The notes under the pieces are model-generated. The model did not search any database. It saw only the letters and a program-made list of their open reading frames with translations, and was not told the DNA's origin. DNA of 64,000 nucleotides, from positions 1,984,001-2,048,000 of the forward strand of contig NC_017583.1 of NCBI RefSeq assembly GCF_000184345.1, read 5' to 3'. Each line of letters starts with the position of its first letter. Within the stretch, counting starts at the first letter, position 1. Both the position numbers and the translations under genes were made by a program. The stretch is from Spirochaeta thermophila DSM 6578. GTDB taxonomy: Bacteria > Spirochaetota > Spirochaetia > Winmispirales > Winmispiraceae. Positions 43,657 through 47,182 of this stretch are shown here, piece after piece.

Positions 43657-45171
43657 CTATCTGGGTACCTTGAGGCCGATCACCACCTCGGTGGTGCCCC
43701 GGAGCACGCTGAAACGTACCGTGGCCCCCGGCCTGCTCGTCTCGGCGAGAGCTCCGTAGAAGTCCTTCACCGACCTCACGGCCCGGTCTCCCACAGCGGT
43801 GATCACATCCCCTGCACGAAGGCCGGCCACCGCAGGTGGAGTCCCGGCCGCCACCTGTACCACCAGGACGCCCGTACGGGCCTCGACCCCGTACCGCTCA
43901 CGCACCTCGTCGGTGAGCTGAGTGACCATGAGACCGGGCCATAACTGCTCCACGGACCGGGAAAGCTCATCGTCGGTCTTCCTCTCCCCGAGGCGCACGG
44001 TGAAGACCTTGCTCCCGCCCTGCCTGAGCACCTCTATCTCAACACGCTCGCCGGGGCTCCGCATCCCGATCTCCCGGGAGAGCTCCGAGGCCTGGGTGAT
44101 CACGGTGTTCCCCGCCCGCACCACAAAGTCCCCCGGCCTCAGCCCCGCCTGCCACGCGGGGGACCCCACGTACACGTTGGAGATGAGCGTTCCCTTCTTC
44201 CCCTTGATACCGAGAGCCTCGGCAAACCCGGGGAACGCCACGTCCGAAGGGTCGAGGAGGGTCACACCCAGCCATCCATAGGCCACGTGCCCTCTCTCGA
44301 TGAGCTGTTCCATGGTCCGCTTCGCCACGTTGATGGGGATGGCGAACCCGAGCCCCACGTTGCCTCCGGTCTGGGAGGCGATCCACGCGTTGATCCCTAT
44401 CACCTCGGCGTCGAGGTTCACGAGCGCCCCGCCCGAGTTGCCCGGATTGATGGCCGCATCGGTCTGGATGTAGTCCGTGAACTCACCGATCTGCGTACCG
44501 GGGGGGCTCTTCCTCCCCAAGGCGCTGACTATGCCGGCCGTCACGGTGGACTCGAATCCGTACGGATTACCCACCGCGAGCACCCAGTCGCCCACCTCGA
44601 GGGTGTCGGAGTCGCCCAGCCGGGCCACCGGTATCTCCTCGGAGGTCTCAAAAGAGACCACCGCGAGGTCGATCCGCTCGTCCTTCCCCACGATCTTCGC
44701 AGGAAAGGTCCGCTGGTCGTAGAGTTTCACGCTGATCTCGTCCGCATCCCCCACCACGTGGGCATTCGTGAGCACGTAGACCGTCTTGCCGTCACGACGT
44801 ACGATCACGCCCGAGCCGAGTCCGCTCCGCCTGAACTCCCGTTCCTGGAACTGCGGTGTCCCGAAGAAGAAGTCCCAGGGGGACTCGAAGGAGGGCACCC
44901 GCTGCTTCACCACCTCCACCACGTTGATCTCCACCACCACAGGGAGGACATCACGTGAGACCCGGTTGAATATCTCCTCAAAGGCCCTCGGGTCGACATA
45001 GGTCTTCTCGACCACCCGTTCCTCCCTCACGGGGACCGCAGAGGGAGAGGGATCGGCCGTCTGACCGGCTACCGTAGTGGAGTCGACGAAGGCCACGTTC
45101 TGCTGCGCCTGCGTGCACGCAACCACGAGGAACACGAACGCCACGGCTCTGAGGACAAGATTCCGCTTCAT
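43657..45171 (-). CDS. htrA: Periplasmic serine protease, HtrA/DegP family, two PDZ domains
   Basis: 504 residues. The signal sequence ends VVACTQAQ; VAC with C19 could be a lipobox, so it may be lipid-anchored. Trypsin-like domain with H138 (TNAHVV), D168 (RIDLAVV) and S246 (NPGNSGGALV). PDZ1 spans ~280-375 and PDZ2 ~400-500. It degrades or refolds damaged envelope proteins. It stands downstream of two small heat-shock genes on the same strand, separated by a hairpin. GGGAGGAG precedes the ATG. Confidence 0.93.
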   Translation of the reverse strand: MKRNLVLRAVAFVFLVVACTQAQQNVAFVDSTTVAGQTADPSPSAVPVREERVVEKTYVDPRAFEEIFNRVSRDVLPVVVEINVVEVVKQRVPSFESPWDFFFGTPQFQEREFRRSGLGSGVIVRRDGKTVYVLTNAHVVGDADEISVKLYDQRTFPAKIVGKDERIDLAVVSFETSEEIPVARLGDSDTLEVGDWVLAVGNPYGFESTVTAGIVSALGRKSPPGTQIGEFTDYIQTDAAINPGNSGGALVNLDAEVIGINAWIASQTGGNVGLGFAIPINVAKRTMEQLIERGHVAYGWLGVTLLDPSDVAFPGFAEALGIKGKKGTLISNVYVGSPAWQAGLRPGDFVVRAGNTVITQASELSREIGMRSPGERVEIEVLRQGGSKVFTVRLGERKTDDELSRSVEQLWPGLMVTQLTDEVRERYGVEARTGVLVVQVAAGTPPAVAGLRAGDVITAVGDRAVRSVKDFYGALAETSRPGATVRFSVLRGTTEVVIGLKVPR

Positions 45172-45239: not shown

Positions 45240-45264
45240 AGGGGCTGCCCATCGGGCAGCCCCT
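45240..45264 (-). terminator. Hairpin between small heat-shock gene and htrA
   Basis: 11-bp stem AGGGGCTGCCC/GGGCAGCCCCT with GAT loop, followed on the minus strand by GTTGTGTTGTAACTTTTT. Probably partial termination before htrA. Confidence 0.65.
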
Positions 45265-45272
45265 GCAGCCAC

Positions 45273-45650
45273 TCAGGCGGTCTTCACCTCTATCTTCTTC
45301 GGTTTCGCGCTCTCCTTCACCTGGAGGGTGAGAAAGAGCACACCGTTCTCCAGCCGGGCCTCGATGGACTCGGGGTCCACGGTCTCGTCGAGGGTGAAGA
45401 CCCTCCTGTAGTCGCACATCCTCCGCTCCCTCACCAGGTAGGCCCCCTCAGGAAGGGTGTCCTTCCTGTGCCCCACCACCGTGAGGGTGTTGTCCTCCAC
45501 GGAGATCTCCACCCCATCCTTGTCCACGCCCGGCATCTCCATCCTCACCACGATCTTCCCGTCCTCCTCGCGCACGTCGTACACAGGAGGCCGGAAGACC
45601 CGCTCCTCTTTCCTCGCTTCCTGTTTCTGGAGTTCCTTCCTCTCTTTCAT
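45273..45650 (-). CDS. Small heat-shock protein, Hsp20/alpha-crystallin family (second)
   Basis: 125 residues. The alpha-crystallin domain fills most of the protein (YDVREEDGKIVVRMEMPGVDKDGVEISVEDNTLTVVG ... RVFTLDETVDPESIEARLENGVLFLTL). The usual C-terminal I-x-I tail is KIEVKTA. The N-terminal arm is short and charged (KERKELQKQEARKEERV), which should limit oligomer size. It lies 21 bp after the first Hsp20 gene; the start has GGAAGGAGG upstream. Holdase chaperone. Confidence 0.93.
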   Translation of the reverse strand: MKERKELQKQEARKEERVFRPPVYDVREEDGKIVVRMEMPGVDKDGVEISVEDNTLTVVGHRKDTLPEGAYLVRERRMCDYRRVFTLDETVDPESIEARLENGVLFLTLQVKESAKPKKIEVKTA

Positions 45651-45671: not shown

Positions 45672-46124
45672 TTACTTCACCTGCACGGCGATCTTCTTGG
45701 GCTTCTTCTCCTCCCTCTTTGCGATGGTGATGGTGAGCACCCCGTTCTTGAGCTCGGCCTTCACCGCATCGGGATCGATGGAATCCGGCAGGGAGACCGT
45801 CCTCTGGAACGCACCGCTCCAGGACTCCTTACGGTAGTAATCTCCCTTCTTTTCCTCCTTCTCGTCCTTCTTCTCGCCCTTGATGGTCAGTACGTTGTTG
45901 GTGAGGGTGATGTCGAGATCCTTCTCGCTCACACCCGGGAGGTCGCAGGAGACGATCACCTCGTTGTCGGTCTCCATCACATCGAGACTCGGCGAGGTGA
46001 CTCTGTCGAACAGACCTGTGGTCTCAGGCCATACGAGGTCGAAGACCCGGTTGATCTCCTCCTGTATCCTGTCCAGCTCGTCGAGCCAAGTGTCGGTCGT
46101 CCTTCTCACGAGATCCCTTGCCAT
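45672..46124 (-). CDS. Small heat-shock protein, Hsp20/alpha-crystallin family (first)
   Basis: 150 residues from the ATG at 46124 (AAGGAGGGAG upstream); the frame is open further but without a start signal. A longer N-terminal arm (~1-45: ARDLVRRTTDTWLDELDRIQEEINRVFD) and alpha-crystallin domain (SLDVMETDNEVIVSCDLPGVSEKDLDITLTNNVLTIKGEKK). Tail KKIAVQVK carries the I-x-V anchor. First gene of a two-Hsp20 unit behind a sigma-54-type promoter. Confidence 0.94.
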   Translation of the reverse strand: MARDLVRRTTDTWLDELDRIQEEINRVFDLVWPETTGLFDRVTSPSLDVMETDNEVIVSCDLPGVSEKDLDITLTNNVLTIKGEKKDEKEEKKGDYYRKESWSGAFQRTVSLPDSIDPDAVKAELKNGVLTITIAKREEKKPKKIAVQVK

Positions 46125-46172
46125 ATCTCCCTCCTTACGTACGGTGTGTGTATGGAGCCCACCACGTGGGCC

Positions 46173-46189
46173 GGAGCGATTTTCGCTCC
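46173..46189 (-). promoter_or_regulatory. Hairpin at the predicted 5' end of hsp20 mRNA
   Basis: Minus strand GGAGCGA-AAA-TCGCTCC, perfect 7-bp stem starting at the predicted transcription start. Possibly a 5' stability element or thermosensor; function not shown. Confidence 0.5.
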
Positions 46190-46200
46190 ACATGCAGATT

Positions 46201-46217
46201 AGCAAATGCCGTGCCAA
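46201..46217 (-). promoter_or_regulatory. Sigma-54 (RpoN) promoter for the hsp20 genes
   Basis: Minus strand TTGGCACGGCATTTGCT: GG at -24 and GC at -12 with the TGGCACG-N4-TTGC consensus. The start site should fall near 46190. Confidence 0.75.
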
Positions 46218-46396
46218 CCCAATGACAAGTGCACATCTCATTTGTTGGAAAGAGCTTAAACGTGCCTACCTCGGACGGCGAGTATGGATGGGCGGTCCCG
46301 ATTGGGTCGAAATTACCCACCCGGGGAAGGCGCCCCGAGAGACACCGTGTGTCATAATGATACGATTCCGCCCTCACCGGGGATCCATGGAGCCCC

Positions 46397-46425
46397 TTGC
46401 AGGAACGCCCCGCCTCGCCTACACT
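46397..46425 (+). promoter_or_regulatory. SDR gene promoter placed for leaderless mRNA
   Basis: TTGCAG, 17 bp, TACACT, 7 nt, ATG at 46433. Confidence 0.6.
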
Positions 46426-46432
46426 GGGCCTC

Positions 46433-47182
46433 ATGGAGAGAGCGGCGCTCGTGACCGGCGGGGCGCAGGGTATAGGCGACGCCATCGTGAAGGCCCTGCT
46501 CGAGGCGGGATATGCGGTGGCCTCCGTGGACAAGGACGGAGAGGCGCTCCTGGAACAACAGGAACGGTTGGCAACATACCGGGGCTACCTTCCGATCGAG
46601 GCCGACATCGCCTTCCAGGAAGGGATCGCACGCGCAGTTCGCCTCACCTTGGAGCGCTTCGGACGCCTCCACGGCCTGGTGAACAATGCGGCCGTCTCGG
46701 CAGACACCCCCCTGCACGCGCTCTCGCGGCAGGAGTGGGAGGCGGTGCTGGCCGTGAACCTCACGGCGCCGTGCTTCCTCGCCCAGGCCTGTGCCCCCCA
46801 TCTGGCCGCCACCCGGGGGGCCATCGTCAACATCTGCTCCACACGTGCCCTCATGTCCGAGCCCCACACCGAGGCCTACAGCGCGAGCAAGGGAGGGCTC
46901 CTGGCCCTCACCCACGCCCTCGCGGTGAGTCTGGGCCCCCGCGTCCGTGTGAACGCCGTGAGCCCAGGATGGATAGAGGTGCGCGATCGGAAGAAGCGTG
47001 CGCTGAGGCAGGAGGTCCACCACACCGAGGAGGACGCGCTCCAGCACCCTGCGGGCCGCGTGGGGGTACCGGAAGACATCGCGCGCATGGTGCTCTTCCT
47101 GCTCGACCCTGCGAACGACTTCATCACGGGACAGAACTTCGTCATCGACGGCGGCATGACGAGGAAGATGATCTACGTGTAA
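46433..47182 (+). CDS. Short-chain dehydrogenase/reductase
   Basis: 249 residues. NAD(P)-binding TGGAQGIG (~8-15), NNAAVS, catalytic Ser in ICSTRA, Tyr-x-x-x-Lys in YSASKGG, and NAVSPGWIEV. The acidic residue in VDKDG after strand 2 favours NAD over NADP. Substrate unknown; the pattern is close to glucose 1-dehydrogenase/3-oxoacyl-reductase types. The ATG at 46433 lacks a Shine-Dalgarno, and the promoter ends 7 nt before it. The next gene starts 15 bp after its stop. Confidence 0.88.
   Translation: MERAALVTGGAQGIGDAIVKALLEAGYAVASVDKDGEALLEQQERLATYRGYLPIEADIAFQEGIARAVRLTLERFGRLHGLVNNAAVSADTPLHALSRQEWEAVLAVNLTAPCFLAQACAPHLAATRGAIVNICSTRALMSEPHTEAYSASKGGLLALTHALAVSLGPRVRVNAVSPGWIEVRDRKKRALRQEVHHTEEDALQHPAGRVGVPEDIARMVLFLLDPANDFITGQNFVIDGGMTRKMIYV

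Follow-up and report, generated by a model that had tools for sequence, protein, structure and literature searches.

The window, by which we mean the whole analysed stretch of 64,000 nucleotides, carries a pair of small heat-shock genes on its minus strand. The DNA upstream of them contains a sigma-54-type promoter element and a palindrome that we predict to be an upstream activator site (UAS). The features of the locus are listed below.

45240..45265, minus strand: probable intrinsic terminator after hsp20-2, AGGGGCTGCCC-loop-GGGCAGCCCCT with a T-rich tail, read from the sequence and outside the scanned interval 46100-46500
45273..45650, minus strand: hsp20-2, second small heat-shock protein of 125 aa, encoded 21 bp downstream of hsp20-1 in the same orientation
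45672..46124, minus strand: hsp20-1, alpha-crystallin small heat-shock protein (MARDLVRR..., 150 aa), start ATG at 46124
46157..46171, minus strand: 5′UTR hairpin 2 (GCCCACGTGGTGGGC), whose paired form in G001 is GTCCACGTAGTGGAC, with one compensatory pair
46173..46189, minus strand: 5′UTR hairpin 1 (GGAGCGAAAATCGCTCC), with one change in G002
46189..46191, minus strand: predicted transcription start (~46190), inferred from the -12 spacing and promoter geometry, unmapped
46201..46216, minus strand: sigma-54 -24/-12 promoter TGGCACGGCATTTGCT, identified by its perfect consensus match and its conservation before hsp20 in relatives
46344..46356, no strand assigned: overlapping palindrome GACACCGTGTGTC, a possible second half-site read from the sequence; its TGTGTC half is common with the UAS, and its function is inferred
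46348..46364, no strand assigned: palindrome TGTGTCATAATGATACG (as read on the plus strand), predicted to be the UAS; it lies 132 bp from the promoter on its upstream side, and binding is inferred

A gene for an HtrA-like protease with a trypsin domain and two PDZ domains (window 43660-45171, minus strand) comes next after the hsp20 pair, behind the likely terminator. On the other side, a divergent dehydrogenase gene begins at 46433 on the plus strand. A ROSE element or other RNA thermometer in the leader was considered and rejected: despite the two hairpins, the hsp20 5′UTR matched no thermometer family in Rfam, and its total fold was not unusual (z -1.17).

The minus strand from 46217 to 46201 reads TTGGCACGGCATTTGCT, with the -24 GG at 46215-46214, the -12 GC at 46203-46202 and N4 spacing. 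The first-pass annotation had claimed a match to TGGCACG-N4-TTGC with the invariant GG and GC correctly spaced and directed toward hsp20. Both points were confirmed, as the element fits the sigma-54 consensus and spacing perfectly and is oriented toward hsp20-1, whose ATG (46124) lies 77 bp downstream of 46201 on the minus strand. Within the 64 kb window, TGGCACG-GCAT-TTGCT (46216-46201, minus strand) is the sole -24/-12 element without a mismatch, the remaining matches having 2 mismatches each. In G001, a genome of the same family whose Hsp20-1 is 77% identical, the upstream DNA is mostly unalignable with that of the window genome (G000), yet TTGGCACATTTATTGCA stays in place; the -24/-12 element, which reads TGGCACATTTATTGCA in G001, is the best-preserved block of this diverged interval. 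It is also conserved before hsp20 in G002, and a perfect element, TGGCACGAATTTTGCT, precedes the hsp20 gene of G191, whose Hsp20 is 55% identical.

The complete window genome (2,560,222 bases) encodes rpoN as well as ten AAA+ activators with the central ATPase domain, all scoring like true family members. The components needed by such a promoter, which the first-pass annotation had proposed to look for, are thus present in the same genome as the promoter itself. Two of the activators are variants: L004 carries GAFTDA instead of GAFTGA, and L010 is short and ends soon after the ATPase domain, with no HTH visible in the open frame. Throughout the genome, TGGNAC-N5-TTGCW occurs at 10 sites, compared with 2 for a reversed control pattern, and these sites precede glnA, a glutamate synthase-like gene, a sigma-70-family gene, hsp20, genes beside two activators, and others (gene names, except that of the sigma factor, come from reading translations). 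Because of this excess over the control and the genes that are served, the sites look like working promoters rather than noise. As to the same motif before other stress genes, a search also suggested at the outset, a sigma-54 promoter precedes the sigma-70-family gene in the window genome and clpB in G048 and G029. Taken together, rpoN, the ten activators, the conserved element and the absence of CIRCE described below support the RpoN control of hsp20 that the annotation had put forward. In the absence of transcription data, we are highly confident that hsp20 has a working RpoN promoter in the -24/-12 element. It is plausible that hsp20 answers a signal other than heat alone; no signal can be read from the sequence.

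Three of the genomic sites deserve separate description. The sigma-70-family gene (L059, C1:1607522, minus strand) has a perfect sigma-54 promoter, and its product is closest to the RpoS and RpoD models while falling under their cut-offs. We saw no clear UAS there, and a TGTATG-N6-CATACA sequence lies 110 bp upstream; the arrangement suggests a putative cascade from RpoN to a second sigma factor. At L057 (C1:285851, minus strand), a strong GGGCTGCTTC-GCAT-GAAGCAGCCC hairpin lies no more than 100 bp after a perfect sigma-54 promoter and before a chemoreceptor-like ORF, and it might belong to a small RNA or to an attenuator. L060, which is one of the ten sites (C1:1942898, minus strand), has no evident downstream gene on the same strand but a short hairpin-rich stretch with a terminator-like hairpin. 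When it was compared with L200 in G001 (C2:550342), the UAS-like site, the promoter, the GGAGCGTTGCTCC hairpin and the GGCGTGTGTTC stretch were found to be kept, with the same rpe-like gene alongside. This looks like a probable RpoN-driven small RNA of the same regulon, kept between two genera. Pairing of this predicted RNA with the hsp20 leader, compared by eye, was not conserved.

We also considered that the operon is transcribed mainly from some other promoter, used by the housekeeping sigma factor or by the RpoN-controlled sigma-70-family factor, with the -24/-12 element serving as a second promoter that is minor or specific to stress. Such an arrangement has a precedent in E. coli ibpB, which has both sigma-32 and sigma-54 promoters (PMC4370416, PMC4316790), and the window genome does possess a sigma-70-family gene under an RpoN promoter. 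However, a promoter scan of 46100-46500 found no sigma-70-type promoter, with unusual sigma factors outside its reach, and it is the -24/-12 element that has been best preserved between G000 and G001. We regard this explanation as unlikely but still viable.

To place the locus among its relatives, 117 hsp20 upstream regions from the phylum were classed by a fixed rule, with positions computed from the aligned start. A -24/-12 element was present in 47 of them (shuffled mean 1.8, maximum 5) and CIRCE, which sits just before hsp20, in 33; the other 37 had neither. No region had both elements, and no genome fell into both classes. Of the 47 sigma-54 regions, 30 contained a UAS with at most 3 mismatches (shuffled mean 0.3), and its distance from the promoter, on the upstream side, was 89-269 bp; such a UAS was found in 0 of the 33 CIRCE regions and in 5 of the 37 regions with neither element. 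The UAS consensus was partly derived from the regions that were scored, and the within-class figure is therefore somewhat optimistic. A motif search of the whole window genome at up to 3 mismatches, which did not extend to the hrcA gene, detected no CIRCE (TTAGCACTC-N9-GAGTGCTAA), so that hsp20 does not qualify as a member of an HrcA/CIRCE regulon. Among the spirochaete hsp20 promoters examined that could be classed, roughly half thus appear to have the RpoN arrangement in place of HrcA/CIRCE, as far as predicted elements can tell.

The 17-bp palindrome has the consensus TGTRTCATWATGAYACA, and the copy at 46348-46364 is the sole TGTRTCATWATGATAC site without a mismatch in the window genome. 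Its distance of 132 bp falls within the 80-250 bp expected of a conserved upstream activator site; this assignment was made without binding data. A TGTATCATAATGATACA-like palindrome is common to the compared sigma-54 hsp20 promoters, for example those of G001 and G191. Copies of TGTATCATWATGATACA with at most 1 mismatch were found in 14 genomes among 198 of the phylum. Several of them lie upstream of sigma-54 promoters of sigma-70-family genes in five genomes (G048, G029, G069, G180 and G090), of clpB-like genes, recognized by their Clp_N domain, in G048 and G029, and of a sigma-54-type hsp20 gene in G197. In G067, the palindrome precedes a clpB-like gene at which no sigma-54 promoter was scored, and the copies in G084, G010, G132 and G123 have no such context and may be due to chance. 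A response regulator gene is divergent from the clpB-like gene in both G029 (L190) and G048 (L203), sharing with it the intergenic region and a perfect UAS; the regulator in G029 consists of a receiver plus an HD domain.

A candidate for the protein acting at this palindrome is L003 (G000:654292-655650), which contains a receiver, an AAA+ domain with GAFTGA and a Fis-type HTH. A gene for a PAS/HisKA/HATPase histidine kinase lies directly upstream, as expected of an Hk2-Rrp2-type two-component system. L003 and Rrp2 of Borrelia turicatae, which are ~55.5% identical, fall into one clade with support of 99/97, and the recognition helix IGRKTLHRK is largely conserved within this clade. L003 therefore matches an Rrp2-type activator in its domain order and in its position with Borrelia Rrp2. 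The Borrelia genome used here (G071) was identified as B. turicatae by the 100% identity of a plasmid stretch, and it contains a single strong L003 match with an adjoining kinase-like gene. We took this match to be Rrp2 because Rrp2 is the only activator described in Borrelia (PMC2940757). When named genomes were scanned with the activator alignment, the matches were mostly in other phyla. In the window genome, a small ORF (L205:2868-3423, minus strand) whose translation has a J-domain-like HPD motif is convergent to the activator gene, possibly by coincidence.

The distribution of L003 follows the promoter classes. A match of at least 430 bits was found in 42 of the 45 genomes of the sigma-54 type and in none of the 29 of the CIRCE type (Fisher p ~1.6e-17; 74 genomes). 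The cut-off was picked by eye between the score ranges of orthologs and paralogs, and the test carries no correction for shared ancestry. The sigma-54-type genomes without a strong match are G017, which is 85% complete, and G063 and G091, which are low-GC genomes with weaker promoter calls. Twelve genomes classed as having neither element also carry an L003-type activator, some of them with -12 variants of the TTGAT type, which escaped the strict rule. Moreover, the gene order activator, UAS, sigma-54 promoter and sigma-70-family gene recurs in G048, G069 and G009, which represent three families. A UAS and a sigma-54 promoter also precede the sigma-70-family gene in G180 and G090, and the corresponding gene of the window genome has the promoter without a clear UAS.

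The promoter might be a real RpoN promoter and yet be served by another of the ten enhancer-binding proteins, for example the GAF-domain proteins L002 or L004, or L011, to which the palindrome would then belong. L002 and L004 are likewise conserved in several compared genomes, and a palindrome with 3 mismatches lies upstream of L011, which is 5 kb from a third hsp20 gene. However, among the activators of the window genome, L003 alone has reciprocal best hits in each of the four sigma-54-type genomes that were compared, only L003-type genes were seen beside perfect or near-perfect UAS copies, and the presence of L003 tracks the promoter type in the 74 genomes, the other activators not having been profiled across the phylum. 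We find this assignment improbable. L011 was rejected as the cognate activator on account of the 3 mismatches in its palindrome copy and of a reciprocal best hit that, among the genomes compared, was confined to its own family.

The palindrome could also serve the divergent dehydrogenase gene, which begins 69 bp from it, or be an unrelated operator, with hsp20 activated without an enhancer. Enhancer-independent activation by Rrp2 has been reported for Borrelia rpoS (Blevins 2009, as far as it is cited in PMC11109971). Against this, the palindrome recurs before the hsp20 genes of relatives, G191 and G001 among them, as well as upstream of clpB and of genes for sigma factors, at activator-like distances, and the gene past the intergenic region of G001, as inferred from the alignment, is unlike the dehydrogenase. 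We therefore consider this reading very unlikely. That the -24/-12 match is due to chance and that HrcA or an RNA thermometer controls hsp20 is scarcely credible, since, notwithstanding the two leader hairpins and the compensatory change in G001, the promoter is conserved and strongly enriched over shuffles, no CIRCE site was detected in the genome when up to 3 mismatches were allowed, and neither Rfam nor the fold points to a thermometer.

Overall, we propose a putative mechanism in which an Rrp2-type protein and the palindrome at 46348-46364 operate the RpoN promoter of hsp20. We hold this to be probable, with binding and the start site inferred and the signal unknown. It builds on sequence elements that are present and conserved, on their mutual exclusion with CIRCE, and on the co-occurrence and gene adjacency of the activator. 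RNA polymerase containing RpoN would transcribe the hsp20-1/hsp20-2 operon from 46216-46201, and the promoter would be opened by the response-regulator ATPase L003, the ortholog of Borrelia Rrp2. L003 would be phosphorylated by the histidine kinase encoded upstream or by a small phosphodonor; this phosphorylation, like the inducing condition, is inferred. Dimers or oligomers of L003 may then bind the palindrome and loop to the promoter, both steps being inferred without transcription data. In related spirochaetes, clpB and the sigma-70-family gene next to the activator gene share the site and the promoter type, and Hsp20 would therefore be one output of a regulon. Such an Rrp2-type proteostasis and stress regulon may take the place of HrcA/CIRCE repression.

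The same elements can be followed into the Borreliaceae. TTGGTAY-type -24/-12 elements precede the hsp20 gene in five of the seven Borreliaceae compared (G097, G131, G157, G177 and G185), and in the same five, the palindrome TGTGTATTTATTATACA or its reversed-order form lies ~100-130 bp upstream of the element. The -24/-12 element before hsp20 is gone in B. turicatae (L329), and in G102 its spacing is one base short. The hsp20 gene of this family (L325, L326, L331, L337, L338) sits between fbaA-like and aspS-like genes. In B. burgdorferi, rpoS has been described as the only known sigma-54-type promoter (PMC11109971). Together with the enhancer-independent activation cited there, this makes the Borreliaceae hsp20 sites a prediction that conflicts with the published view or extends it. 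The Rrp2 pathway of Borrelia, orthologous to that of L003, is activated by raised temperature combined with high cell density (PMC2940757). We tentatively speculate, at somewhat less than even confidence, that the ancestral job of Hk2-Rrp2-RpoN was the control of chaperones (hsp20, clpB and a sigma factor) through a DNA enhancer, in exchange with HrcA/CIRCE, and that Borrelia inherited it. If this is true, the Borreliaceae hsp20 gene would be a second RpoN target and the diverged palindrome a candidate Rrp2 enhancer. More broadly, our analysis proposes what DNA is bound and which genes are controlled by an Rrp2-type activator outside Borrelia. It also describes two unrelated modes of control for one set of chaperone genes, which were never seen together among the genomes examined. 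With a 17-bp site defined in a thermophilic, free-living relative, enhancer use by Rrp2 can be put to a direct test.

The closest known system is Hk2-Rrp2-RpoN-RpoS of B. burgdorferi. The predicted activator shares a clade with B. turicatae Rrp2, and its gene lies next to that of a kinase; several spirochaetes have this site and an RpoN promoter before a sigma-70-family gene. Unlike in the Borrelia pathway, for which the published account gives rpoS as the only known sigma-54-type promoter and no enhancer, the clear target here is an operon of small heat-shock genes, with a palindromic site upstream of it. An RpoN promoter also serves the small heat-shock gene ibpB of E. coli (PMC4316790, PMC4370416). 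However, that promoter is a second one inside a sigma-32 operon, whereas at our locus no promoter other than the -24/-12 element can be recognised, and a conserved site lies upstream. In other spirochaetes, HrcA/CIRCE controls homologous hsp20 genes, but negatively, through a repressor, and among the 117 regions, no region or genome combined it with the RpoN arrangement. In Bacteroidota and Planctomycetota, the GroES, GrpE and IbpA families are enriched in predicted RpoN regulons (PMC12316311); the accessible part of that survey reports this chaperone cluster in other phyla and gives no activator, binding site or spirochaete hsp20. A small heat-shock gene under sigma-54 thus has a precedent in ibpB, and chaperone regulons of this kind have been predicted in other phyla. 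What appears new, within the open-access literature searched, is the enhancer motif of the spirochaetes, the connection of this motif with Rrp2, and the exchange between the RpoN arrangement and CIRCE, which exclude each other.
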